From NCBI RefSeq assembly GCF_030546645.1, contig NZ_JAUOTO010000005.1, positions 806,001 to 870,000 on the forward strand: a stretch of DNA of 64,000 nucleotides, written 5' to 3'. This document shows, in pieces, positions 46,386-62,945 of the stretch (the first letter of the stretch is position 1; each line of letters begins with the position of its first letter). This stretch comes from Flavitalea plasmicola. GTDB taxonomy: Bacteria > Bacteroidota > Bacteroidia > Chitinophagales > Chitinophagaceae. Position numbers and translations under genes: made by a program. The notes under the pieces are model-generated. The model was not told where the DNA came from. It worked only from the letters and a program-made list of their open reading frames with translations, and made no database searches.

Positions 46386-47807
46386 TTAGAAGCCGAACTG
46401 CAACAGCTCTTCAAAGCTGTAGGTCGTCTGCTGGCCATTGCTGAGGTCTTTTAGTTTGCATTGGCGGCTGGCCAGCTCTTCGCTGCCGAGGATGGCGACA
46501 TACCGGATGCCTTTCTTTTCGGCGTATTTGAATTGTTTGTCGAATTTGGCATGTTCGTGATAGAGTTCAGCGGGGATGCCTTTTGCCCGGATCTGCTGAA
46601 GCAGGCCGAAGGCGGTGCGGGATTCGGCGTCGCCCAGGTTGAAGAAGAGCAGTTTTGTGCCTGCGTGCACGTCGTTGGGGAAAAGCTGCAGCTCTTCCAT
46701 CACGTCATAGATGCGGTCCACTCCGAAAGAAATGCCTACGCCCGGGATATTGGGTACGCCGAAGAGGCCGGTGAGGTCGTCATAGCGGCCGCCGCCGCCG
46801 ATGCTGCCCATTTTGGCGGTGGTAGCTTTTACCTCGAAAATGGTGCCTGTGTAGTAGTTCAGGCCCCGGGCGAGGGTGAGATCGATGTTTAGAGCTGCGA
46901 GCGGCGAGCTTTGAGCTTCGAGCTGGGAGTTTTGAGCTGTGAGCTCTGAGCTGTGAGCTTCGAGGGGGTATTTTAAGAGATATTCGAGTTCGGCGATGCC
47001 TTTCAGGCCCGTTTCGTTGTTGGCGAAGAGGGTTTTCAGGGTTTCGAGCTTGGTTTGGTTATCGCCGGCGATGTTCAGGTATTGTTCGATGGCTGCGATC
47101 TGGTCGTTGAGAAGGCCCCGTTGGGCCAGCTCTTCCTTCACCTTTTCCAGTCCGATCTTGTCGAGCTTGTCGATGGCGACGGTGATGTCCGTCATTTTTT
47201 CGGGTCCGCCGCAGACTTCGGCCAGGGCGGCCAGGATCTTGCGGTTGTTGATCCTGATCTCGACGGGGATGCCCAGCAGCTGGAAGGATTGGCGGTAGAT
47301 GGCCGCCAGCTCGACCTCGTTGAGGAGGGACTGGCTGCCTACCACGTCGGCGTCGCACTGGTAGAATTCGCGGTAGCGGCCTTTCTGGGGTTTGTCGGCG
47401 CGCCAGACGGGCTGCATCTGGAAGCGTTTGAAAGGAAAGGTCAGCTGTCCGTGGTTCATGGCGACCCATCGGGCGAAAGGGATGGTGAGGTCATAGCGGA
47501 GGGCCCGCTCGGTGAGGTCTTTATCATTTTTGCCGTCGAGGACTTTCTCGAAGGCTTTGCGGGCCTTTTCTATGTTCTTGGGGTCGCCCAGGCCATTGTT
47601 GAGGATCTTGAAGATGAGCTTGTCGCCTTCGTCGCCATATTTACCCATGAGGGTTTCCAACTGTTCCATGGCGGGGGTCTCCAGGGGCTGGAAGCCATAG
47701 CGCTCGAAAACGGTGCGGATGGTATTGAAGATGTAGCTTCTTTTGCGGACGGTGGCGGGCCCGAAGTCACGGGTGCCCTGGGGCAGGGATGGTTTTAAGC
47801 TGCTCAT
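46386..47807 (-). CDS. hisS: Histidyl-tRNA synthetase
   Basis: Charges tRNA-His with histidine. It has 473 aa. Class II features are clear: PQGTRDFGP near the N-terminus, motif 2 region RYREFYQCDADVVG, the histidine-A signatures LARGLNYYTGTIFEV and GGGRYDDL, and the anticodon-binding domain ending AILGSEELASRQCKLKD. Residues about 282-305 (between KYPL and NIDLTLARGL) are encoded by an array of ten 7-bp repeats that keeps the frame. That gives a Ser/Ala/Gln/Leu-rich linker. Its start overlaps the phosphatase stop by 4 bp, so the two are translated as an operon. Confidence 0.97.
   Translation of the reverse strand: MSSLKPSLPQGTRDFGPATVRKRSYIFNTIRTVFERYGFQPLETPAMEQLETLMGKYGDEGDKLIFKILNNGLGDPKNIEKARKAFEKVLDGKNDKDLTERALRYDLTIPFARWVAMNHGQLTFPFKRFQMQPVWRADKPQKGRYREFYQCDADVVGSQSLLNEVELAAIYRQSFQLLGIPVEIRINNRKILAALAEVCGGPEKMTDITVAIDKLDKIGLEKVKEELAQRGLLNDQIAAIEQYLNIAGDNQTKLETLKTLFANNETGLKGIAELEYLLKYPLEAHSSELTAQNSQLEAQSSPLAALNIDLTLARGLNYYTGTIFEVKATTAKMGSIGGGGRYDDLTGLFGVPNIPGVGISFGVDRIYDVMEELQLFPNDVHAGTKLLFFNLGDAESRTAFGLLQQIRAKGIPAELYHEHAKFDKQFKYAEKKGIRYVAILGSEELASRQCKLKDLSNGQQTTYSFEELLQFGF
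46893..46962. repeat. Ten 7-bp repeats (AGCTNNG) inside hisS
   Basis: Units AGCTGCG, AGCGGCG, AGCTTTG, AGCTTCG, AGCTGGG, AGTTTTG, AGCTGTG, AGCTCTG, AGCTGTG and AGCTTCG run without gap on the plus strand. The same family appears at 53563 and 60520, and inverted at 60655. Because 7 is not a multiple of 3, three units are needed to add seven residues without a frame change. Confidence 0.9.
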
Positions 47808-48412
47808 AATTTGGGGGATTGGGAGGATCCGGGTCCTGTGGTGGATGAGGTAGTTCCCGATCCGGTGGAGGATGGGGTAGATCCCGATACGATGGATGGA
47901 GTACCGGATGAAGCGTTCTGTCCGTATTTTTCGATGATCTTGTCCGCGGCGGCGTCGATCATTTTATAGACTTCGTGATAGCCGGGCTCCGAGCCGTAGT
48001 AGGGATCGGGGACGTCCTCATTTTTGCCGGGGTGAAGCTCGTTCAATAAGAGTTCCACCTTAGATGGGTCGAAGGAACGGCCGGCGATGCGCCTCATTTC
48101 ATGGACCACGTCTTCGGCCATGGCATATATTTTGTCAAAACGTTGAAAATCATTGGCGTTGAATTTTCGGGCCCTTTGCTGACTGATGTCGATGCCTTTG
48201 GCCCGCGCCACTTTTTGAGAAAGAGGGTGCGGGGCTTCACCAATGTGATAGCCATTGGTGCCGGCGCTGTCCACTTTCCAGGTAAGGCCGGCGGCCCGGG
48301 CTTTTTCCTGGAGAATGCCTTCCGCCAGCGGGCTGCGGCAGATGTTGCCGAGACATACCATTAAAAAGGAGCTGGCCGGTGTGTTTAAAAGGGAGCTGGC
48401 CGGTGTGTTCAT
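47804..48412 (-). CDS. Low-molecular-weight protein-tyrosine phosphatase with unusual ends
   Basis: Dephosphorylates phosphotyrosine, probably in the cytoplasm. It has 202 aa against about 150 normally. The P-loop is CLGNICRS (Cys20, Arg26), and the general acid is Asp136 in DVPDPYYGSEPGY. The N-terminal MNTPASSLLNTPASSFL is an 8-codon duplication (DNA repeat 48363-48410) placed before the usual MVCLGN start. The C-terminal 37 residues (about 165-202) are a Ser/Thr/Gly/Pro low-complexity tail encoded by diverged repeats. The last four bases overlap the hisS start (ATGA), suggesting translational coupling. Confidence 0.93.
   Translation of the reverse strand: MNTPASSLLNTPASSFLMVCLGNICRSPLAEGILQEKARAAGLTWKVDSAGTNGYHIGEAPHPLSQKVARAKGIDISQQRARKFNANDFQRFDKIYAMAEDVVHEMRRIAGRSFDPSKVELLLNELHPGKNEDVPDPYYGSEPGYHEVYKMIDAAADKIIEKYGQNASSGTPSIVSGSTPSSTGSGTTSSTTGPGSSQSPKL
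48363..48410. repeat. 24-bp tandem duplication at the phosphatase start
   Basis: Two 24-bp copies (48363-48386, 48387-48410) differ at two bases. They encode NTPASSLL and NTPASSFL on the minus strand, next to the ATG at 48412. Confidence 0.9.
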
Positions 48413-51897: not shown

Positions 51898-52311
51898 ATG
51901 GACATCTTTCTTTTACAAGCCAATACCCTTACGAGCGAATCTAATCTAAATAATTCCTTTAGTTATTTTCCAATTGGTGTCCAATTTATCTTCGCGATTG
52001 GTTTTGTACTGATGGTGCTGGGCGTCACCCATTTATTGGGTCCCAAGCGTAAGACTGCCGAAAAACTTCAGAATTTCGAGAGTGGTATCGAGGCTGTGGG
52101 CAATGCCCGGCAGCCGATGGCCGTTAAATATTTTTTAGTAGCTATCTTATTCGTACTGTTTGATGTGGAAGTGATCTTTTTCTACCCTTATGCGGTCAAT
52201 TTCAGGCAGCTGGGGTGGGGTGGGTTCACGGAGGTCTTATTGTTTGTCGTCTTTTTCCTGGCAGGGTTTTTTTATGTGATCAAGAAGGGAGCGCTGACCT
52301 GGGAAGATTAA
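51898..52311 (+). CDS. nuoA: NADH-quinone oxidoreductase subunit A
   Basis: Membrane subunit of complex I at the junction of membrane and peripheral arms. It has 137 aa from ATG 51898. An upstream in-frame extension through the terminator is not used. Three transmembrane helices are seen: IFAIGFVLMVLGVTHLL, FLVAILFVLFDVEVIFFYPY and VLLFVVFFLAGFFYVI. The conserved acidic loop FESGIEAVGNARQPMAVKY is present. First gene of the operon, after its own promoter. Confidence 0.95.
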   Translation: MDIFLLQANTLTSESNLNNSFSYFPIGVQFIFAIGFVLMVLGVTHLLGPKRKTAEKLQNFESGIEAVGNARQPMAVKYFLVAILFVLFDVEVIFFYPYAVNFRQLGWGGFTEVLLFVVFFLAGFFYVIKKGALTWED

Positions 52312-52347
52312 GCGTACGAATTATGATTTAGTTAAAATATTAAGATT

Positions 52348-52938
52348 ATGGCACGTCCGGTAAGGTTCAATGTACATCCCATCAAGGCTGACATCAATGA
52401 GAATGTCAGTATCGTCGATATGCCCCAGGGATATTCCGGCGAGGGCTTTTTCACGACCAAGCTCAGTAGCGTGGTAGGTCTGGCCCGGAAGAATTCCCTC
52501 TGGCCCATGCCTTTCGCCACCTCCTGCTGCGGCATCGAATTCATGGCTACCATGGCTTCCCACTACGATCTGGCCCGCTTTGGTGCGGAGAGGCTGGGTT
52601 TTTCGCCCCGTCAGTGTGACCTGTTGATGGTGATGGGAACGATCGCCAAGAAAATGGGTCCTATCGTGAAGCAGGTGTACCTGCAGATGGCGGAGCCCCG
52701 TTGGGTCATGGCGGTAGGCGCCTGTGCTTCCAGTGGCGGGATCTTCGATACCTATTCCGTATTGCAGGGGATCGACCAGGTGGTGCCGGTGGACGTTTAT
52801 GTACCGGGGTGCCCACCCCGGCCGGAAGCTATCCTGGATGGATTTATGCGTATCCAGGACCTGGTGGGGGCAGAGAGTGTCCGCCGGCGGAACAGCGACG
52901 AGTATAAAAATCTTTTACAGAGTTACGGAATTCAATAG
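52348..52938 (+). CDS. nuoB: NADH-quinone oxidoreductase subunit B
   Basis: Holds the last iron-sulfur cluster (N2) that passes electrons to quinone. 196 aa. The four cluster ligands fit as Cys60-Cys61 (TSCCGIEF), Cys126 (GACASSGG) and Cys155 (VPGCPPRPE). It begins 36 nt after nuoA and ends 4 nt before nuoC. Confidence 0.97.
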   Translation: MARPVRFNVHPIKADINENVSIVDMPQGYSGEGFFTTKLSSVVGLARKNSLWPMPFATSCCGIEFMATMASHYDLARFGAERLGFSPRQCDLLMVMGTIAKKMGPIVKQVYLQMAEPRWVMAVGACASSGGIFDTYSVLQGIDQVVPVDVYVPGCPPRPEAILDGFMRIQDLVGAESVRRRNSDEYKNLLQSYGIQ

Positions 52939-52942
52939 CGAC

Positions 52943-53557
52943 ATGGCATTAACCAACGAGACAATCAAAGAGCGGTTGAAGGCGAAATTCGGGGACGAGT
53001 TATCGAATTTCGAGGAGCCTTATGGTCTTCTCACCTTCGAAGCTCCGAAAGACCTCAATTTAAAAATAATGCAATTCCTTTTCGACGACGAGGAGTTGCG
53101 TTTTCAGTTTTTGACGGACCTGACTGCGGTGCATTATCCGGGGCAGGCCGGCCGGGAGCTGGCGGTGGTCTATCACCTGCATAACCTGACGGATAATATC
53201 CGTTTGCGAATGAAGGTATTTGCGCCGATCGCGCAGCCGGATGTATTTACGGCCACGCAGCTTTATTCTTCCGCGAACTGGATGGAGCGGGAGACTTTTG
53301 ACTTTTATGGGGTCAATTTTGTCGGTCACCCGAACCTCAAGCGCATCCTCAACGTGGATGAGATGACGTATTTCCCTATGCGGAAGGAGTTTCCGCTGGA
53401 AGATCAGACGAGGATCGATAAGGATGATGCGATGTTTGGGCGGGGTCCGGGAGGGATCGTTTCGCCTGTGGATGCGAAGGTGCGTACGTCTGTCGCCGGG
53501 CAGGCAGGGCCTTTGAATACGGCTGATCCCGGAGGGGCGACGAGCGACCAGCGTTGA
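52943..53557 (+). CDS. nuoC: NADH-quinone oxidoreductase subunit C
   Basis: 30-kDa peripheral-arm subunit, separate from NuoD here. 204 aa from ATG 52943. Signature REFDFYGVNF-like region is ERETFDFYGVNFVGHPNLKR. The end has a non-conserved tail after PLEDQTRIDKDDAMFG. Its 3' gap to nuoD (106 bp) contains a 7-bp repeat array. Confidence 0.95.
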   Translation: MALTNETIKERLKAKFGDELSNFEEPYGLLTFEAPKDLNLKIMQFLFDDEELRFQFLTDLTAVHYPGQAGRELAVVYHLHNLTDNIRLRMKVFAPIAQPDVFTATQLYSSANWMERETFDFYGVNFVGHPNLKRILNVDEMTYFPMRKEFPLEDQTRIDKDDAMFGRGPGGIVSPVDAKVRTSVAGQAGPLNTADPGGATSDQR

Positions 53558-53562
53558 GTGGA

Positions 53563-53620
53563 AAGCTGCAAGCTGCAAGCTACAAGCTGCAAGTGGGAGG
53601 GAATAGGTGTGAGAGGGATT
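53563..53620 (+). repeat. 7-bp repeat array with conserved flank, nuoC-nuoD gap
   Basis: Five units (AAGCTGC, AAGCTGC, AAGCTAC, AAGCTGC, AAGTGGG) are at 53563-53597. The flank AGGTGTGAGAGGGATT (53605-53620) occurs again at 60590-60605, after the array in the nuoJ-nuoK gap. Confidence 0.85.
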
Positions 53621-53663
53621 GTTTAGGTGTGATAAATGGGTCTAGGCCCTGAAAATATACAAT

Positions 53664-54890
53664 ATGAGTGTCGATCAACATATAAAGTTACCGGAAGGGA
53701 GCATCGAGAAAACGACCACTACGCTGAACCTGGGGCCTACGCACCCTGCTACGCATGGGGTTTTCCAGAATATCCTGGAGCTGGACGGGGAGCGGATCGT
53801 CTCTGCGGAACAGACGGTGGGCTATATTCACCGGGCTTTTGAGAAGCTGGCGGAGCGCCGGCCATTGTACCAGATCACGACGCTGACGGACCGGCTGAAC
53901 TACTGTAGCAGTCCTATCAATAATATGGGATGGCATATCACCTGCGAGAAGCTGCTGGGAGTGAAGACGCCCAAGCGGGTGGATTATCTCCGTGTCATCA
54001 TCATGGAGCTGTCCCGGATCTCCGATCACTTGATCTGTAATTCGGTGGTGGGAGTGGATTCCGGCGCTTTCACGGGATTCCTGTATGTGATGCAATACCG
54101 CGAGCTGATCTATGAGATCTATGAGGAAGTGTGCGGATCGCGTCTGACGACGAATATGGGCCGGATCGGGGGGTTTGAACGCAACTTTACCAATGCGGCT
54201 TTCGAGAAGTTAGAGAAATTCCTTGCTGAATATCCTGGTGTGCTGCGGGAGTTCGAGAATATGTTCACCCGGAACCGCATCTTTATGGAGCGGACGATCG
54301 GGGCGGGACCTATCAGCGCAGAAAGGGCTTTGAATTATGGGTTTACCGGTCCGAATCTTCGGGCTGCGGGAGTAGACTATGACGTGCGGGTGCATACTCC
54401 TTATTCCAGCTATGAGGATTTCCAGTTCGATATACCTGTGGGCAACACGGGTGATTGTTATGACCGGTTCCTGGTGCGTAACGGCGAGATGTGGCAGTCA
54501 TTGAAGATCATCGAAGATGCGTACCGTAAGGTGAAGGAGTTCAAGGGTACGGACGCGGATGTATATCATGCGGATGCACCGGCTTATTACCTGCCTGAAA
54601 AGAAAGATGTTTATACGAAGATGGAGGCGCTGATCTGGCATTTCAAGATCGTGATGGGGGAGACGGAGATCCCTCCGGGTGAGGTGTACCAGTCAGTGGA
54701 AGGAGGGAATGGAGAAGTAGGCTATTACCTTATCAGTGATGGGGGGCGTACGCCGTACAGGTTGCATTTCCGCCGGCCTTGTTTTATTTATTATCAGGCT
54801 TATTCGGAGTTGACGAAGGGGAGTATGTTGAGTGATGCGATCATTACGATGTCAAGCCTCAACCTCATTGCCGGAGAAATGGATGCCTAG
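53664..54890 (+). CDS. nuoD: NADH-quinone oxidoreductase subunit D
   Basis: 49-kDa subunit forming the quinone-binding site with NuoB. 408 aa, full length. Conserved segments include LGPTHPATHGVFQNILEL, YIHRAFEKLAE, FERNFTNAAFEKLE-like region and the C-terminus ending SLNLIAGEMDA. A short GC hairpin (CGGCGC-aca-GCGCCG at 54893-54907) follows the stop. Confidence 0.97.
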   Translation: MSVDQHIKLPEGSIEKTTTTLNLGPTHPATHGVFQNILELDGERIVSAEQTVGYIHRAFEKLAERRPLYQITTLTDRLNYCSSPINNMGWHITCEKLLGVKTPKRVDYLRVIIMELSRISDHLICNSVVGVDSGAFTGFLYVMQYRELIYEIYEEVCGSRLTTNMGRIGGFERNFTNAAFEKLEKFLAEYPGVLREFENMFTRNRIFMERTIGAGPISAERALNYGFTGPNLRAAGVDYDVRVHTPYSSYEDFQFDIPVGNTGDCYDRFLVRNGEMWQSLKIIEDAYRKVKEFKGTDADVYHADAPAYYLPEKKDVYTKMEALIWHFKIVMGETEIPPGEVYQSVEGGNGEVGYYLISDGGRTPYRLHFRRPCFIYYQAYSELTKGSMLSDAIITMSSLNLIAGEMDA

Positions 54891-54996
54891 GACGGCGCAC
54901 AGCGCCGATGATAGAAGAGATACCCTTGAACGGAGCGTCGCAACGGATGGTGAGGAGAGAAAAAATGCTGATAACAAGAAGATTACTTTTAGGTTT

Positions 54997-55497
54997 ATGA
55001 TAAAATTTTCAGACGAGAAGTTAAAGAAGGTGGACGAGATCGTCGCCAGATACCCCCAGGGAAAGCAGAAGAGCGCCTTGTTGCCTGTGCTGCACCTGGC
55101 GCAGGAAGAGTTTGGGGGATGGCTCAGCGCTGAAACGATGGACTATGTCGCCTCGCTGCTGAAGCTGGAGCCGATCGAAGTGTATGAGGTGGCGACCTTC
55201 TATTCCATGTATAACCTGAAGCCGGTGGGCAGATATATGTTCGAAGTTTGCCAGACGGGACCTTGCATGTTGCGGGGGAGTGACCAGATCATCGATTATA
55301 TCAAGCAGAAATTAAATATAGGTGTGGGTGAGACGACGGCGGATGGGCTTTTTACGCTGAAGACGGTGGAATGCCTGGGGGCGTGTGGATATGCGCCGAT
55401 GATGCAGCTGGGCAAGCATTTCCGGGAGCATCTGACGCCGGAAAAAGTGGATGCCATTATCGATGAGTGCCGGAAGAATGCGGCAGCGAATAATTGA
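54997..55497 (+). CDS. nuoE: NADH-quinone oxidoreductase subunit E
   Basis: 24-kDa subunit with a [2Fe-2S] cluster near the NADH site. 166 aa from ATG 54997; a longer upstream frame overlaps nuoD and is not used. Cluster ligands are Cys85 and Cys90 (CQTGPCML) and Cys126 and Cys130 (CLGACGYAPMM). The nuoD-nuoE gap is 106 bp. Confidence 0.96.
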   Translation: MIKFSDEKLKKVDEIVARYPQGKQKSALLPVLHLAQEEFGGWLSAETMDYVASLLKLEPIEVYEVATFYSMYNLKPVGRYMFEVCQTGPCMLRGSDQIIDYIKQKLNIGVGETTADGLFTLKTVECLGACGYAPMMQLGKHFREHLTPEKVDAIIDECRKNAAANN

Positions 55498-55533
55498 GGC
55501 GGCGGAGCTGAATAAGGATGTAAACCTGTCAAT

Positions 55534-55740
55534 ATGAATAAGCGCCGAAATTACAGGATACTATGGTGGACCCTGATATTGGGATCACTGGTCCTGGACC
55601 TGATCAGGGGCAGGATGGAGCCGGGTGCGGCCAGGGAGATCGTGAGATATATTGGAGTTGTAATGCTCGCCGTGGCTGTAGTACAATTGGTGGTTGTTCG
55701 GGCGAAGCCGAAAGTTTTGAAGGACGGAGAGCAGCAGTAA
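55534..55740 (+). CDS. Small membrane protein inserted in the nuo operon
   Basis: 68 aa: a basic N-terminus (MNKRRNYRILWW), two hydrophobic helices (about 10-24 and 36-55), and a charged end. It sits 36 nt after nuoE and 32 nt before nuoF, on the same strand. Not a standard complex I subunit. Could be a small assembly or stabilising protein, or an operon hitch-hiker. Confidence 0.6.
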   Translation: MNKRRNYRILWWTLILGSLVLDLIRGRMEPGAAREIVRYIGVVMLAVAVVQLVVVRAKPKVLKDGEQQ

Positions 55741-55772
55741 ATAAACAAGAGTTGAGTTAAACGCTATATAGC

Positions 55773-57128
55773 ATGGGTAGAAAATTATTATTGGAAAAGG
55801 CACATGTCGAAGGCATTCGCGGATACGATGTATACCGTCGTGAAGGCGGCTACCGCAGTGTCGAGAAGGCTTTGAAAACAATGACGCCGGACCAGGTGAC
55901 GGAAGAGGTGAAGAAGAGCGGCTTGCGGGGTCGTGGCGGTGCGGGTTTCCCTACGGGTATGAAGTGGAGCTTTCTGGCCAAGCCGGAAGGCGTGCCCCGT
56001 TACCTGGTGTGCAATGCGGATGAGTCGGAGCCGGGGACCTTTAAGGACCGGTATCTGATGGAGTTCCTGCCGCACCTGCTGATCGAGGGGTTGATCGTCA
56101 GTTCCTATGCACTGGGGAGCAAGAGCACCTATATCTATATCCGTGGTGAATATGCGTGGATCCCGGATATCCTGGAGCAGGCTATTGAAGAGGCGCGGGC
56201 TAATAACTTTTTAGGTAAGAATATACTGGGCACGGGCTTCGACTGTGAGATCTATGTGCATCGCGGTGCGGGCGCTTATATCTGCGGTGAAGAGACGGCG
56301 CTGATCGAATCGCTGGAAGGCAAGCGGGGTAATCCCCGGATCAAGCCTCCTTTCCCTGCTGTAAAGGGGGTATGGGATTGCCCGACGGTGGTGAACAATG
56401 TGGAGACGCTGGCGGCTGTCGTTCCCATCATCAATGAAGGGGGCGAAGCTTATTCTAAAATAGGTGTGGGCAAGTCGACGGGTACGAAGCTGTTGTCTGC
56501 CTGCGGCAATATCAATAAGCCGGGGGTGTATGAGATCGATATGACCATCTCCGTGGAAGAATTCATCTTCTCTGACGAATATTGCGGTGGCATTCCCAAC
56601 GGTAAGCGGCTGAAGGCCTGTATACCGGGCGGTTCTTCCGTGCCTATCCTGCCAGCGAACCTGCTGTTGAAGACGGCGAAAGGTGAGACGCGGATGATGA
56701 ACTACGAGAGCCTGGCGGATGGCGGCTTCCCGAAAGGGTCGATGATGGGCAGCGGAGGTTTTATCGTGCTGGACGAGGATCAGTGCGTGGTGCGCAATAC
56801 GCTGACGCTGGCGAGGTTCTATCGTCACGAGAGCTGCGGGCAGTGTTCGCCTTGCCGTGAGGGTACGGGTTGGATGGAGAAGATCTTAAAGAACATTGAG
56901 TACGGCAAAGGTAAATCAAGCGATATCGATCTGCTCTGGGATATCCAGCGTAAGATCGAGGGGAATACGATCTGTCCTTTGGGGGATGCGGCGGCGTGGC
57001 CGGTGGCGGCGGCGATCCGGCATTTCCGGGATGAATTTGAGTGGCATGTGAAGAACCCGGTGGAGTCGCAGCATAGGAATTTCGGACTGGCGCACTACGC
57101 GGATCCTCTTGAAGTCGTGCCTGCCTGA
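55773..57128 (+). CDS. nuoF: NADH-quinone oxidoreductase subunit F
   Basis: 51-kDa subunit that binds NADH and FMN and a [4Fe-4S] cluster. 451 aa. Nucleotide and flavin motifs GLRGRGGAGFPTGMKWS (about 50-66), YIYIRGEYAWIP and AYICGEETALIESLEGKRG. Cluster cysteines lie in ESCGQCSPCREGT (around 354) and CPLGDA (around 400). Confidence 0.97.
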   Translation: MGRKLLLEKAHVEGIRGYDVYRREGGYRSVEKALKTMTPDQVTEEVKKSGLRGRGGAGFPTGMKWSFLAKPEGVPRYLVCNADESEPGTFKDRYLMEFLPHLLIEGLIVSSYALGSKSTYIYIRGEYAWIPDILEQAIEEARANNFLGKNILGTGFDCEIYVHRGAGAYICGEETALIESLEGKRGNPRIKPPFPAVKGVWDCPTVVNNVETLAAVVPIINEGGEAYSKIGVGKSTGTKLLSACGNINKPGVYEIDMTISVEEFIFSDEYCGGIPNGKRLKACIPGGSSVPILPANLLLKTAKGETRMMNYESLADGGFPKGSMMGSGGFIVLDEDQCVVRNTLTLARFYRHESCGQCSPCREGTGWMEKILKNIEYGKGKSSDIDLLWDIQRKIEGNTICPLGDAAAWPVAAAIRHFRDEFEWHVKNPVESQHRNFGLAHYADPLEVVPA

Positions 57129-57167
57129 CGGCAGGCCGGGAACGGACTATTTATTAAATAAAAGATT

Positions 57168-58268
57168 ATGGCTGACGAAAAGAAGCTATTTAAGGTTACG
57201 ATCGACAATATCACCATCGAGGTGGAGCCGGGGACTTCTATCCTGCAGGCGGCCCGGAGGATCGGCGGCGATGTGGCGCCTCCTGCTATGTGCTATTACA
57301 CCAAGTTAAAGGGTAGCGGCGGTAAGTGCCGTACCTGCCTGGTGGAAGTGGCGGCGGGGTCTACGGCTGATCCGCGCCCGATGCCGAAGCTGGTGGCCAG
57401 CTGCCGGACGAATGTCATGGACGGCATGGTGGTGAAAAATATCACCAGCGAGAAGGTGATCGATGCGCGGAATGGGGTGGTGGAGATGTTGCTGATCAAT
57501 CATCCGCTGGACTGTCCCATCTGTGATCAGGCGGGGGAGTGCCATCTGCAGGACCTGAGCTATGAGCATGGGAAGGAGGGCACCCGTTATGAGTTCGAGC
57601 GCAGGACTTTTAAGAAGCATGATCTCGGTCCGTATATCCAACTGCACATGACACGTTGTATCCTTTGTTACCGCTGTGTCTTCACGGCGGATCAGTTGAC
57701 GGAGAAAAGGGTGCATGGGGTACTGGACAGGGGAGACCATTCGGAGATCGCTACCTATATCGAGAAGTCATTGGAGAATGATTTTATCGGCAATATCATC
57801 GACGTGTGCCCTGTAGGCGCCCTGACGGATAAGACGTTCAGGTTCAAGAACCGCGTTTGGTTCCTTAAGCCCGTGGATGCACATCGCAACTGCAATCACC
57901 CGAAATGTAACGGGAAGGCAACTTTATGGTACCGGGGGGATGAGGTGTTCCGTGTGACGGCCCGTAAGGACCAATGGGGTGAAGTGGAGGATTGGATCTG
58001 CAACGAGTGCCGGTTTGAGAAAAAGAAGACGTCGGATTGGGAGATCGAAGGACCTACAAAGGTGAACAGGCATTCTGTCATTTCGCAGGGGCATTATGTA
58101 GGGACGGTGCGGCCGCAGGAAGTGGTGTATGATGTGATGGGAGGAAGGGCGCCGAAGCTGCTGATGGATATTCATAATGTCAGTGAGGTGAACCGGCCGG
58201 AGATCGATCTGTCCAAGCTGGAAAGGCCGGCGCATTCGACGGATTTTAGTCCGCATGAAGAAAGATAA
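57168..58268 (+). CDS. nuoG: NADH-quinone oxidoreductase subunit G, short Bacteroidota form
   Basis: Electron-transfer subunit of complex I, 366 aa against about 700-900 in other phyla. Cluster ligands: [2Fe-2S] Cys42, Cys54, Cys57, Cys79; N5 His112, Cys116, Cys119, Cys125; N4 Cys164, Cys167, Cys170, Cys214. A further four cysteines (242, 247, 278, 281) could bind one more cluster or zinc. The large molybdopterin-like C-terminal domain is missing, as I recall for Bacteroidota NuoG. Confidence 0.94.
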   Translation: MADEKKLFKVTIDNITIEVEPGTSILQAARRIGGDVAPPAMCYYTKLKGSGGKCRTCLVEVAAGSTADPRPMPKLVASCRTNVMDGMVVKNITSEKVIDARNGVVEMLLINHPLDCPICDQAGECHLQDLSYEHGKEGTRYEFERRTFKKHDLGPYIQLHMTRCILCYRCVFTADQLTEKRVHGVLDRGDHSEIATYIEKSLENDFIGNIIDVCPVGALTDKTFRFKNRVWFLKPVDAHRNCNHPKCNGKATLWYRGDEVFRVTARKDQWGEVEDWICNECRFEKKKTSDWEIEGPTKVNRHSVISQGHYVGTVRPQEVVYDVMGGRAPKLLMDIHNVSEVNRPEIDLSKLERPAHSTDFSPHEER

Positions 58269-58296
58269 GAGAGGTAATTTTTAATAATTAGCAGGC

Positions 58297-59376
58297 ATGT
58301 ATTCAACGTTACTAAGTATCAATTTCGATTGGCTTTTATTGATCGAGAAGGCTGTGCTGATCGCCATTATCATCAGCGTTTCGCTGCTGGTGGCCATGTA
58401 TGAGACCTGGGGCGAGCGGAAGGTGGCGGCCTTTATGCAGGACCGTCGCGGACCGAACCGGGCGGGACCCGGAGGTTTGTTCCAGCCGCTGGCGGACGGG
58501 TTGAAGCTCTTTGCAAAGGAAGAGATCATTCCCAACAGCTCTAACCGGTTCTTGTTCGTGCTGGGTCCGGGCCTGGCCATGCTGACGGCGATGATGACCA
58601 GTGCGGTGGTGCCGTGGGGCAGTCATTTTGATCTTTTCGGCCGCCATATCTCGCTGCAGATAGCGGACATCAATATCGGCATCCTATACATCTTCGGCGT
58701 CGTGAGCATGGGCGTTTATGGCATCATGATCGGCGGCTGGGCTTCCAATAACAAATTTTCTCTGCTGGCGGCTATCCGCGGTGCATCGCAGATCATTTCC
58801 TACGAGCTGGCGATGGGCATTTCCATCATAGCCCTGCTGATGATCACGGGATCGCTGAGCCTGAAGACGATCGTGGAGCAGCAACAGACCGGTCATTATT
58901 ATGTGTTGCTGCAGCCTTTAGGCTTTCTCATCTTCCTCATCTGCGCCTTTGCGGAGTGTAACCGTACGCCTTTCGACCTCTCAGAGGCGGAGAATGAGCT
59001 GAACTTCGGTTATCACCAGGAGTATTCATCCATGAAACTGGGCTTTTATCTTTTTGCGGAATATGTCAACATGTTCATCAGCAGTGCGGTGATGGCGACG
59101 TTGTATTGGGGCGGGTATGACGTGCCTTTCCTGAATGACGCGACGTTCGGACAGGCGCACGGGCAGAACCTGCTGGCGACGCTGCAGGTGGTGAGCCTGT
59201 TTGTGAAGATCGTGGCCTTTATCTTCTTCTTTATGTGGGTGCGGTGGACGATACCGCGTTTCCGTTATGACCAGCTGATGAAGTTGGGGTGGAAGGTATT
59301 GATCCCGCTGGCTTTGTTCAATATGCTGGTGACGGGATTTTTAGTGTTGTTGAAGCAGAATCACTGGCATTTCTAG
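58297..59376 (+). CDS. nuoH: NADH-quinone oxidoreductase subunit H
   Basis: Membrane subunit at the quinone entry site. 359 aa with eight transmembrane helices. Conserved segments are YETWGERKVAAFMQDRRGPN, GLFQPLADGLKLFAKE, and AECNRTPFDLSEAENELNFG with the key acidic residues. It begins 28 nt after nuoG. Confidence 0.97.
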   Translation: MYSTLLSINFDWLLLIEKAVLIAIIISVSLLVAMYETWGERKVAAFMQDRRGPNRAGPGGLFQPLADGLKLFAKEEIIPNSSNRFLFVLGPGLAMLTAMMTSAVVPWGSHFDLFGRHISLQIADINIGILYIFGVVSMGVYGIMIGGWASNNKFSLLAAIRGASQIISYELAMGISIIALLMITGSLSLKTIVEQQQTGHYYVLLQPLGFLIFLICAFAECNRTPFDLSEAENELNFGYHQEYSSMKLGFYLFAEYVNMFISSAVMATLYWGGYDVPFLNDATFGQAHGQNLLATLQVVSLFVKIVAFIFFFMWVRWTIPRFRYDQLMKLGWKVLIPLALFNMLVTGFLVLLKQNHWHF

Positions 59377-59427
59377 TTGATTGAGAGATTTGGTAAGTTG
59401 AATCGATAAAAATACATTTGCGCAATT

Positions 59428-59970
59428 ATGCAACCATTAACAAGCAGAGCAAGGGCGGTAGAACGTAAGCCGATGACCATGTGGGAGAGGATGTACCTGC
59501 CTGCCATTGCGAAGGGGATGTCCATCACTTTTAGTCACATGTTCAAGAAGAAGCCTACGGTGAACTATCCGGAGAAGACCAGGCCCTTCAGCCCCGTTTT
59601 TCGCGGGCTGCATGTATTGAACCGTGACGAGCAGGGCAGGGAGCGTTGTACGGCCTGCGGACTTTGCGCCGTGGCGTGTCCGGCGGAGGCTATCACCATG
59701 GAAGGGGCCGAGCGGCTGCCGGGTGAAGAGAACCTGTACCGTGAGGAGAAGTATGCGGCGAAGTATGAGATCAATATGCTGCGCTGTATCTTTTGTGGAC
59801 TTTGTGAGGAGGCCTGCCCGAAGGATGCTATCTATCTTTCTGAAACGTTTGCGCCGGCTAACTATACGAGGAAGGGTTTTATTTATGGGAAGGAGGAGCT
59901 GCTGATACCCAACCCGGTGACGGAGCCGGAGGAGTTTGCGAAGGCACAAGGCGGGAGGGTGAAACAATAA
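59428..59970 (+). CDS. nuoI: NADH-quinone oxidoreductase subunit I
   Basis: Carries two [4Fe-4S] clusters (N6a, N6b). 180 aa. Ligand sets: Cys74, Cys77, Cys80, Cys84 (CTACGLCAVACPAEAI) and Cys120, Cys123, Cys126, Cys130 (CIFCGLCEEACPKDAI). Its N-terminal helix attaches it to the membrane arm. It is 51 nt after nuoH. Confidence 0.97.
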   Translation: MQPLTSRARAVERKPMTMWERMYLPAIAKGMSITFSHMFKKKPTVNYPEKTRPFSPVFRGLHVLNRDEQGRERCTACGLCAVACPAEAITMEGAERLPGEENLYREEKYAAKYEINMLRCIFCGLCEEACPKDAIYLSETFAPANYTRKGFIYGKEELLIPNPVTEPEEFAKAQGGRVKQ

Positions 59971-60020
59971 GAGTAAGAGCACAAATTCATCAAGATAGAA
60001 AAATTTAACTGTACTGCGCA

Positions 60021-60521
60021 ATGGGTATTACGCAAATTCTGTTCTGGGTCTTAAGCATACTGGCGCTGCTGAGCGCCATATTGGTGGTGATAAGTAAGAA
60101 TCCTGTACACAGCGTGTTGTGGCTTATTGCCGTATTTATTGCTATTTCCGGTCATTATATATTATTGAATGCCCAGTTCCTGGCCATTGTGAACCTGATC
60201 GTCTATGCAGGCGCCATCATGGTCCTGTTCCTTTTTGTGTTCATGCTGATGAACCTGAACTCGGACACGGAGCCGCAGAAGAACAAGTGGCTGAAGATCG
60301 CGGGCGTCGTGGCGGGCGGTTCGTTGCTGCTGGTGCTGGTGGCGGCGTTGAAGCAGGCGGATATGAAGGGGCAGCTGGCGGAGATGAACAAGGGGGATAT
60401 CGGGTTGATCAAGAACCTGGGGATGGTGCTGTTCCAGGATTATGTCGTGCCTTTCGAGATCAGCAGCGTGCTGTTCCTGAGCGCCATGGTGGGAGTGGTG
60501 GTGATAGGGAAGAAGGATTAG
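60021..60521 (+). CDS. nuoJ: NADH-quinone oxidoreductase subunit J
   Basis: Membrane-arm subunit of 166 aa with about five transmembrane helices. The conserved helix region is NLIVYAGAIMVLFLFVFMLM. Its stop codon TAG opens an array of 7-bp repeats that fills part of the 194-bp gap to nuoK. Confidence 0.93.
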   Translation: MGITQILFWVLSILALLSAILVVISKNPVHSVLWLIAVFIAISGHYILLNAQFLAIVNLIVYAGAIMVLFLFVFMLMNLNSDTEPQKNKWLKIAGVVAGGSLLLVLVAALKQADMKGQLAEMNKGDIGLIKNLGMVLFQDYVVPFEISSVLFLSAMVGVVVIGKKD

Positions 60522-60605
60522 CTTTGAGCTGCGAGCTGTGAGCCGTGAGCTGCAAGCTTCAAGCTGCAAGCTGCAAGCGGGGAGTTTGGAGGTGTGAGAG
60601 GGATT
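60520..60605 (+). repeat. 7-bp repeat array and flank after nuoJ
   Basis: About nine units at 60520-60582 (AGCTTTG, AGCTGCG, AGCTGTG, AGCCGTG, AGCTGCA and so on). The flank AGGTGTGAGAGGGATT follows at 60590-60605, identical to that at 53605-53620. Confidence 0.85.
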
Positions 60606-60654
60606 AATTGGTGTTTAAAGTAGTTATTTAAAATAAAAGGATTATTTAAGCCTG

Positions 60655-60689
60655 GCTTGTAGCTTGCAGCTCGCAGCTTGTGGCTGCCA
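60655..60689 (-). repeat. Inverted 7-bp repeat array before nuoK
   Basis: Five units in opposite orientation (GCTTGTA, GCTTGCA, GCTCGCA, GCTTGTG, GCTGCCA). Together with the array at 60520 it could fold into a long imperfect stem in the nuoJ-nuoK mRNA. Confidence 0.8.
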
Positions 60690-60715
60690 GTTTGAGCGAA
60701 GCGAAAACTAGTACC

Positions 60716-61045
60716 ATGCCGATCAATTATTACATATTTCTTGCGTTGGCCCTCTTTTGTATCGGGGTGGCCGGGGTGCTTACCCGTCGCAATGCGATCA
60801 TCATTTTCATGTGTATCGAGCTCATGTTGAATGCCGTCAACCTGCTGCTGGTGGCTTTCTCGAAGATGCACCAGCATGCGCTGGCCGTCACCAATCCCAA
60901 TGCGGGGATCGACGGGCAGCTGTTCGTGTTCTTTATCATGGTGGTGGCTGCCGCGGAAGTGAGCGTTGGACTGGCCATTATCGTGATGATGTATCGAAAT
61001 ACCCATTCGATAGATGTGAATTTCTTAAATCGACTGAAACATTGA
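60716..61045 (+). CDS. nuoK: NADH-quinone oxidoreductase subunit K
   Basis: 109-aa membrane subunit with three helices. Conserved Glu residues lie in helices 2 and 3 ([18 protein letters not shown] and [18 protein letters not shown]). Start ATG 60716; an upstream GTG in the repeat region is in frame but not typical. The nuoL start follows 1 nt after its stop. Confidence 0.95.
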
Positions 61046-61046
61046 T

Positions 61047-62945
61047 ATGATAAATTTAGTTTGGTTGGTCCCGGTGCTGCCGCTGGCAGGATTTCTGATC
61101 AACGGTCTTTTCCGCAACAGCTTGTCAAAAGGGATGACCGGGGTTGTCGGTTGTGGCGTTCTTCTTGGTTCCTTCATCCTGAGCCTGCTGATCTTCGGGC
61201 AGGTACGCCAGGAGGGTTTTGAGGCGGTGACGGTGACGCTGTTCGATTTTATCAGTGTAGACAAGCTGCATATCCCTTTCGCTTTCCAGGTGGACCAGCT
61301 GTCGGTGTTGTTCTCATTGATCATTACGGGAGTAGGGTTTCTCATTCATTTATACTCCACGTCCTATATGCATGAGGAGGAGGCTCCACATTTCGCCCGG
61401 TATTTCTCTTATCTGAACTTATTCGTTTTCTCCATGCTCCTGCTGGTGCTGGGCGCCAACTTCGTCATTCTCTTCATTGGATGGGAGGGGGTGGGGCTTT
61501 GTTCTTACCTGCTTATAGGCTATTGGTTTAAGAATATTGAGTATGGAAATGCGGCGAAGAAAGCCTTCATCATGAACAGGATCGGTGACCTGGGATTCCT
61601 CATTGCCATATTCTGGATGATCAACCAGTTCGGGTCTGTGACGTTCACGGAGGTGTTTGGCAGTGCCAAGGGCGCTTCGGTAGGGGTGATGACCGGCATT
61701 ACGTTGTTGCTTTTTGTAGGCGCCACGGGTAAGTCGGCGCAGATACCATTATATACCTGGCTGCCGGACGCCATGGCGGGTCCTACGCCTGTGTCGGCCC
61801 TGATCCATGCGGCGACGATGGTGACGGCGGGGATCTATATGATCGCCCGGAGCCATGTGCTGTATTCGCTGGCGCCTGTTACGCAGACGGTGGTGGCGGT
61901 GATCGGTCTGGCGACGGCGTTGTTTGCCGCGACCATTGCGCTGAAACAAAACGATATCAAGAAAGTGCTGGCCTACTCTACGGTGAGCCAGCTGGGCTAT
62001 ATGTTCCTGGGCCTGGGCGTAGGCGCCTATACGGGCGCGGTATTCCATGTCATGACGCACGCCTTTTTCAAGGCCCTGTTGTTCCTGGGCGCCGGCTCCG
62101 TCATTCATGCCATGGGCGGGGAGCAGGATATCCGTAAGATGGGCGGCCTGCGCAAGGCGTTGCCAGTGACCAGCCTTACCTTCCTCATCGGCTGTGTTGC
62201 CATCGCGGGTATCCCACCTTTCTCGGGATTTTTCTCCAAAGATGAGATCTTAGCGGCGGCTTATGCCAAGAGCCCGGTGTATTATAGCATCGGTCTTTTT
62301 ACGGCTATGCTGACGGCTTTTTATATGTTCCGGCTTTTTGCCACTACGTTCAGCGGCCAATTCCGCGGAACGCATGACCAGGAGCATCATTTGCACGAGA
62401 GCCCTTCGTCCATGACGATCCCATTGATCGTGCTGGCTATACTGGCGGCAGTGGCGGGCTTTCTGGGCATCCCCGAGGCGCTGATGCCGCATGCGCACGT
62501 GTTGGAGCATTTCCTGTCGCCTGTGCTGGCGGAGGGTGGTTCCGAGGCGCATGGTGCTGTTGAGATCAGCCGGGGAACGGAACTGGGCCTGATGGGGCTG
62601 TCGGCTGGGCTGGCATTGGTGGTTTCGTTGTGGGCCTGGAGCAAATTCAAAAGCAAGCCGGAAGTGGGAGAGCCTGCCGGTTTTGGCAAGGTGCTGGCCA
62701 ATAAATGGTATGTGGATGAGCTGTACAGGGCCATTATCATCCGGCCGATGAATGTATTGGGCAAGTTCTTTGTCTGGCTGGAAAAATGGGTCATCGACGG
62801 GGCTGTCAATGGAACGGGGAGGCTCGTACAATATGGCGGCAGGCAATTGCGGTTGCTGCAGAGCGGGCAGGTAGGCGGGTATGTGCTGCTGATGGTGATC
62901 GGCATCCTGGCCTTGTTCCTGGTGGAGTTATTCGTTAAGAAATAA
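61047..62945 (+). CDS. nuoL: NADH-quinone oxidoreductase subunit L
   Basis: Antiporter-like proton-pumping subunit at the end of the membrane arm. 632 aa with about 15-16 helices. Conserved blocks: FIGWEGVGLCSYLLIGYWF, SAQIPLYTWLPDAMAGPTPV, SALIHAATMVTAGIYM, and KKVLAYSTVSQLGYM. A His-rich loop (DQEHHLHESPSS) and a C-terminal lateral-helix region with KWYVDELYRAI are present. Confidence 0.97.
   Translation: MINLVWLVPVLPLAGFLINGLFRNSLSKGMTGVVGCGVLLGSFILSLLIFGQVRQEGFEAVTVTLFDFISVDKLHIPFAFQVDQLSVLFSLIITGVGFLIHLYSTSYMHEEEAPHFARYFSYLNLFVFSMLLLVLGANFVILFIGWEGVGLCSYLLIGYWFKNIEYGNAAKKAFIMNRIGDLGFLIAIFWMINQFGSVTFTEVFGSAKGASVGVMTGITLLLFVGATGKSAQIPLYTWLPDAMAGPTPVSALIHAATMVTAGIYMIARSHVLYSLAPVTQTVVAVIGLATALFAATIALKQNDIKKVLAYSTVSQLGYMFLGLGVGAYTGAVFHVMTHAFFKALLFLGAGSVIHAMGGEQDIRKMGGLRKALPVTSLTFLIGCVAIAGIPPFSGFFSKDEILAAAYAKSPVYYSIGLFTAMLTAFYMFRLFATTFSGQFRGTHDQEHHLHESPSSMTIPLIVLAILAAVAGFLGIPEALMPHAHVLEHFLSPVLAEGGSEAHGAVEISRGTELGLMGLSAGLALVVSLWAWSKFKSKPEVGEPAGFGKVLANKWYVDELYRAIIIRPMNVLGKFFVWLEKWVIDGAVNGTGRLVQYGGRQLRLLQSGQVGGYVLLMVIGILALFLVELFVKK

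Follow-up and report, generated by a model that had tools for sequence, protein, structure and literature searches.

The minus strand of the window, by which we mean the whole 64,000-nucleotide stretch of Flavitalea plasmicola DNA that was analysed, encodes at positions 46386..47807 the histidine--tRNA ligase HisRS (hisS, 473 aa), assigned on the basis of homologs up to 92% identity and of profile search giving 384.6 bits for TIGR00442 at a curated cut-off of 286.75; among the matches listed, homologs with names come from Puia and Chitinophagaceae. Positions 46893..46962 inside this gene are occupied by ten contiguous, indel-free 7-mers of the type AGCTNNG on the plus strand (CNNAGCT in the minus-strand reading), following in the order AGCTGCG, AGCGGCG, AGCTTTG, AGCTTCG, AGCTGGG, AGTTTTG, AGCTGTG, AGCTCTG, AGCTGTG and AGCTTCG, so that eight units are exact and two deviate by one base. 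The minus-strand translation of the array is LEAHSSELTAQNSQLEAQSSPLAA, corresponding to HisRS residues 282-305 a short distance before DLTLARGLNYYTG. The first-pass annotation, which described ten units encoding a linker just before LARGLNYYTG, was correct in coordinates and residue range. Tandem Repeats Finder (TRF) detects the array independently, with period 7 at 46906-46964 and period 21 at 46892-46964. An assembly or gene-calling artefact could be suspected, as tandem repeats assemble poorly, but all ten units are traversed by an open frame, a like linker is present in close homologs from other sequences and the contig extends over 882,917 bases; we rejected this option, whose probability appears negligible.

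The 14-mer AGCTNNGAGCTNNG, covering two units, occurs seven times in the window versus 0.11 expected from shuffles, and relaxed scanning of the whole window revealed three more arrays of the family. One of them (53536..53598, plus strand, best part 53563-53593) lies at the 3′ end of the upstream gene, while two others compose a hairpin-like pair, in which the left, intergenic arm (60520..60603, plus strand), which contributes with its first AG the last two bases of the TAG stop closing the upstream frame, is separated by an AT-rich stretch (60604..60650) from the inverted right arm (60651..60692, minus strand). The ORF caller placed the pair (60520-60692) within a minus-strand frame of 163 aa, which was judged spurious, and we take all three arrays as non-coding. 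Repeats of another kind are present in the low-molecular-weight phosphatase-like gene upstream of hisS, namely a 24-bp duplication at its start (48361-48409; NTPASSLL/NTPASSFL) and a tail of 27-bp repeats rich in Ser/Thr/Pro/Gly (47826-47900); neither is heptameric.

In the AlphaFold2 model of HisRS residues 285-301 have pLDDT below 50, the preceding block 271-280 averaging 94. Since the mean for the whole model is 75.5 and residues 41-150 are also weak, low pLDDT alone is no proof of disorder, and the loop has the low-confidence prediction typical of disordered segments. The solved HisRS that matches best (6nhi) has a linker 15 residues shorter in the alignment, and across 46 aligned homologs length varies mainly in this place (P0017, among the rows listed, has a second insert after CGG). 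Two homologs, P0001 and P0002 (92% identical), are 466 aa long versus 473 aa, and the seven missing residues fall within the array. They equal 21 nt, or three units, exactly the step predicted by the first-pass annotation for preservation of the frame.

The heptamer is not confined to hisS. In the 8.73-Mb assembly AGCTNNGAGCTNNG has 139 matches (85 + 54), its reversed control only two (1 + 1), and the three-unit pattern AGCTNNGAGCTNNGAGCT has 66 (40 + 26) with no match for the reversed control, which substantiates the description of the unit as dispersed and implies that an essential enzyme carries a peptide read from a genome-wide repeat. For detailed study 55 regions were taken, with two-unit arrays drawn from 100 of the 139 matches listed and the last contigs represented only via three-unit matches; some two-unit matches, such as L190, L200 and L209, may be chance occurrences in coding DNA. 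Strict scanning of these regions and the window gave at least 68 arrays of 2 to 43 units each. A 7-nt unit, tandem arrangement and many loci per genome are therefore all found in the AGCTNNG family. Relaxed scanning of the same regions and window positions 52001-62000 yielded 1017 units, with AGC at positions 1-3 (90-96% for each base), T at position 4 in 71% and variable bases, mostly D, Y and R, at positions 5-7, although detection favours conserved positions, somewhat inflating the contrast, and a few arrays were read on the wrong strand. The resulting profile AGC-T/G/C-D-Y-R contains no G-run and so, as read from sequence, is not of G-quadruplex type. In units beginning with AGC, positions 6-7 are CA in 250 cases, TG in 195, CG in 173 and TA in only four, versus about 81 TA estimated by hand under independence (one inside genes and none outside in the inside/outside comparison described below); this scarcity looks like CpG decay or a pairing constraint. 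Distribution of the family is patchy: an AGCTNNG 18-mer was found in 31 of 195 family genomes, our own included, and is absent from 164. In one genome, G060, 31 + 30 matches to the reversed control (a TCGANNG-like heptamer) stand beside 24 of AGCTNNG, perhaps representing a sister family.

The first-pass annotation placed the family, outside hisS, only in non-coding gaps of the window; this holds there and does not extend to the genome as a whole. According to a simple ORF caller, 31 of 69 array clusters (66 from fetched regions and three from the window, hisS among them) lie inside ORFs, some of which are spurious (16 and 12 clusters in the two senses, 3 mixed), 32 are intergenic (tandem gene pairs flank 19, convergent pairs 11 and divergent pairs 2) and 6 more fall at locus edges. 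Candidate frames were translated for 29 cases, and 20 array-bearing ORFs were scanned against Pfam, giving matches for 15: QueA (queuosine synthesis), Lhr-type helicase, ATP-dependent DNA ligase, S9 peptidase, a phage-integrase-family recombinase (XerC/D-type by reading), Mur ligase (MurF-like by reading), LptF/LptG, MerR, fatty acid hydroxylase, FecR, an ABC-permease/auxiliary protein, two glucoamylases, S41 peptidase and BatA. Five scanned ORFs (L189, L196, L198, L199 and L208) had no Pfam match. Consideration of HisRS as a unique case was accordingly rejected in view of in-frame arrays in other conserved genes.

Eight genus relatives were searched and their loci compared gene by gene. The recombinase insert is missing in all six loci compared (total gaps of 51-53 residues), that of Mur ligase in all four, two of them as split alignments, and that of QueA is shortened or missing in five of six, the exception, L246, showing no gap of 5 residues or more. 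These are thus lineage-specific inserts in conserved genes, and the idea of invasion put forward for hisS holds in a broader sense than was originally meant, since other genes were entered as well and the family shows repeated filling of this linker. MITEs are characterised by terminal inverted repeats plus a target-site duplication; filled and insert-free forms of the recombinase gene, compared at the DNA level by eye only, display no clear duplication. Within the insert itself (L195, 1151-1319) heptamer arrays are separated by G-rich spacers (GGGAGGGAGGGGG) and by a block that is repeated. At another locus (L202, 1187-1276) the reading frame runs through an entire hairpin element lying between ABC permease and ABC_transp_aux domains.

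If the linker peptide were selected as such, as a functional segment or a spacer, periodicity of DNA would be a by-product of repeated codons. The placement of the loop in an essential enzyme and the fact that 120 listed homologs stay full-frame proteins agree with this scenario, but a period of 7 nt is no codon multiple, many relatives have no array, the peptide differs between lineages and similar peptides are found in unrelated proteins of the source genome. Moreover, the unit is written nearly equally in both environments: comparison of 28 arrays in Pfam-supported ORFs plus hisS (237 units) with 57 arrays of the intergenic class (448 units) gave 0.82 vs 0.92 for C in position 3, 0.70 vs 0.72 for T in position 4 and 0.54 vs 0.50 for G in position 5, the largest difference being G in position 7 (0.72 vs 0.54), which means that protein does not shape the unit. 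A conserved functional linker peptide was rejected on the grounds of peptide variability and of this uniform profile; selection of the peptide seems very unlikely to us, and no function is indicated for it.

The linkers of relatives were further analysed at the DNA level using 118 distinct loci with full context (from L031-L169), and periodicity was accepted as significant if no more than one of 200 codon-order shuffles scored as high. By this measure a 7-nt period is significant in 20 of 118 linkers and in none of the upstream or downstream flanking segments (0/118 each). Other periods, 4, 5, 8, 10, 11 and 13, were registered in 5, 0, 2, 0, 0 and 1 linkers, respectively, and period 14 in 15. 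Shuffling of bases instead of codons returned 17 heptad linkers of 119 at p < 0.01. The remaining 98 of 118 are not significantly heptad, hence other processes also lengthen the loop, and most same-genus loci among the matches listed have other spacers. One linker, that of genome G312, is AGCTC-like by eye and not significant (p 0.11), with a single AGCTC match in its genome. Sixteen unit labels, some being mutual variants, were read from the linkers, including AGCTCNN, TCAAACG, GAGAAAC, CAAATCT, CTCACCA, CAACTGT, CTCCAGA, CGACTCC and ACGCAGA. The units differ between lineages, and so do the peptides (SSQLTA-, SQISNLK-, ETRNEK- and LTTHHS-types). The same linker peptide spelled by unrelated codons in distant HisRS proteins, the observation named by the first-pass annotation as fatal for its reading, was not encountered, as significant heptad linkers combine another heptamer with another peptide. 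Being placed on a HisRS tree built with the linker excluded, the heptad label requires at least 14 changes, seven of them forced by starred branches, where parsimony is blind to gain versus loss and the tree is a quick one (116 rows, 17 labelled heptad, 46 open forks), omitting L166 and counting L091 and L118, whose heptad unit is not nameable, as not heptad. Shuffled labels on the same tree average 16.1 changes, so the label is only slightly clustered.

What relates the unit inside hisS to the rest of the genome is seen from the search of six heptamers, out of the 16 labels, in 20 genomes chosen to include carriers, counts being overlapping matches with the hisS copy included. For all six, a genome carrying the unit in hisS ranks first or second of 20. 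CTCACCA is most frequent in its carrier G164 (154), followed by G325 (40), whose HisRS has a close variant; CAAATCT peaks in its carrier G324 (16, the next genome having 4); and TCAAACG was found only in G321 (14). CAACTGT leads in carrier G328 (53), then come G306 (47) and G312 (36), another carrier, G327, being fourth (17). Two units are outranked by a genome with a different hisS array: AGCTCNN, for which our own genome is second (50) after G327 (61, many of them in two long perfect satellites; its hisS carries CAACTGT), and GAGAAAC, for which carrier G322 (12) follows G329 (15; its hisS carries CTCCAGA). For CTCACCA and CAACTGT reversal of the array just yields a rotation of it, which makes the reversed-pattern control void. 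The satellites of G327 are long perfect runs of AGCTCGA in contigs C96 and C206, unlike the degenerate arrays elsewhere.

This correspondence bears on the possibility that a chance 7-mer gave rise to the array locally through polymerase slippage, other loci contributing nothing. Bacteria are reported to be rich in heptanucleotide repeats, for which slippage has been proposed (PMC4679880; PMC4692102); besides, adjacent units are somewhat more alike than units of different arrays, being identical in 16% vs 6.6% of cases in our own genome and 26% vs 18% in G164. Nevertheless, within-array shuffles already give 12% and 18%, respectively, and with so low an excess recent single-unit slippage is not the main process. 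Purely local growth also leaves aside both the rank of carrier genomes in all six tests and the presence of arrays of the hisS unit elsewhere in the genome, and we regard it as improbable. Insertion at hisS, as opposed to local growth, would be the inference drawn from the genome matrix; comparisons of filled and short forms cover the recombinase, Mur ligase and QueA genes.

Arrays of opposite orientation also follow a rule. Opposite neighbours separated by no more than 80 nt in our own genome are convergent, (GAGCTNN)n then (AGCTCNN)n, in 19 cases (GC) and never reverse (CG), seven overlapping calls having been dropped. In G164, with its unrelated unit, the ratio is 13 (GC) to 1 (CG) within 120 nt, counted in 20 regions, some of which were picked for facing pairs visible among matches. 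Five hand-picked elements fold as hairpins with z from -3.2 to -6.8. The intergenic pairs are palindromic, yet vary in unit and length, hisS having a single direct-repeat arm, and most intergenic arrays are found where the upstream gene ends, at stop codons. All this might be expected of a DNA- or RNA-level element under selection, a protein-binding array or a 3′-end hairpin/terminator, genic copies of which are tolerated spill-over or local regulators, and it is also favoured by unit positions being fixed or free in the same way in genic and intergenic arrays. On the other hand, arrays contain TGA and TAG and may supply stops themselves, so that an abutting stop is not independent evidence; array detection in itself favours conserved positions; and 164 of the 195 family genomes lack the pattern. 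No Rfam match at gathering threshold was obtained in 11 sources, and a known RNA family was rejected on this basis. Such a selected element remains in our estimation a doubtful, though serious, candidate.

Taken together, we consider it quite probable that the hisS array stems from a resident dispersed heptamer and is carried in frame in a permissive HisRS loop, which in Chitinophagaceae has been filled several times independently. The loop just before LARGLNYYTG would tolerate many lengths and sequences and has repeatedly taken up 7-nt arrays, their heptamer, in the cases tested, being common elsewhere in the same genome. Arrays may have been moved or seeded from existing ones, intergenic copies often adopting the convergent form (GAGCTNN)n - AT-rich core - (AGCTCNN)n where genes end, and genic ones presumably survive only if the loop is permissive and the array can be read without a stop. 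Any later change in hisS array length would then come in three-unit steps. More tentatively, and with more chances against than for, one might think of a class of selfish elements in Chitinophagaceae with identity residing in a degenerate heptamer: a genome-specific process would write arrays of fixed and free positions, typically as convergent arms round an AT-rich core at gene ends and also into ORFs, lineages would replace the unit, and the HisRS loop would serve as a landing pad recording the active heptamer.

Belonging to an enzyme both essential and universal, the HisRS loop therefore represents a replicated natural experiment, with at least 14 label changes, seven of them well supported, and 7-nt arrays accommodated in a frame not divisible by 7. 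As hisS is accessible to sequencing in every isolate, it can be tested directly how bacterial heptamers arose and spread, and repeat-derived peptides in recombinase, Mur ligase, QueA and other core proteins bear on the origin of new protein segments. In open-licence literature, among the matches listed and with AGCTNNG itself not queried, there was no paper on heptamer arrays in HisRS; nor, among the matches listed, was there one on heptamers of Chitinophagaceae. Heptamers near stop codons, a TAACTGA set in putative purC and REP/RPE insertions in housekeeping genes are already known, and what did not appear in the literature search is the combination of degenerate genome-specific heptamers with convergent arms and with recurrent invasion of a single HisRS loop.

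The closest analogues are the dispersed, G-quadruplex-forming heptameric repeats GGGAATC of Xanthomonas and GGGGA(C/T)T of Nostoc, which are intergenic by 89% and 93% in two xanthomonads and by 68% in a Nostoc strain (PMC4692102). Common features are the 7-nt unit differing by genus, dispersal, frequent position near or overlapping a stop codon, some intragenic copies and, for the Nostoc repeat, a degenerate position in the unit; unlike them, the family described here has no G-run, has about half of its classified clusters in ORFs and commonly forms convergent pairs (PMC4692102). TAACTGA direct repeats, known from Beggiatoaceae, Cyanobacteria and some Bacteroidetes, are likewise 7 nt long and patchy, with other heptamers alongside in Bacteroidetes, repeat-free intergenic regions in relatives and one set inside a putative purC, but in their main genome most sets sit immediately before start codons and the unit does not vary, while here 3′ ends and genes are occupied by degenerate, genome-specific units (PMC4679880).

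In-frame inserts in conserved genes having insert-free homologs, a trait of Rickettsia palindromic elements (RPEs) and REPs, are seen here as well (for QueA one of six relatives is without a gap of 5 residues or more), while a palindromic element of defined sequence is not what the hisS array represents. A REP-associated transposase (RAYT) is a feature of REP systems. In-frame repeats are documented in housekeeping genes, DNA ligase and tRNA synthetases included, and ends of REPs often supply TAG stops, convergent and tandem gaps being preferred, all of which resembles our case (PMC10969869; PMC3733652). REPs of 20-40 bp and RPEs of about 150 bp are, however, palindromes sorted by sequence family, whereas what hisS contains is one arm of a tandem array whose 7-nt unit changes from genome to genome (PMC10969869; PMC3733652).
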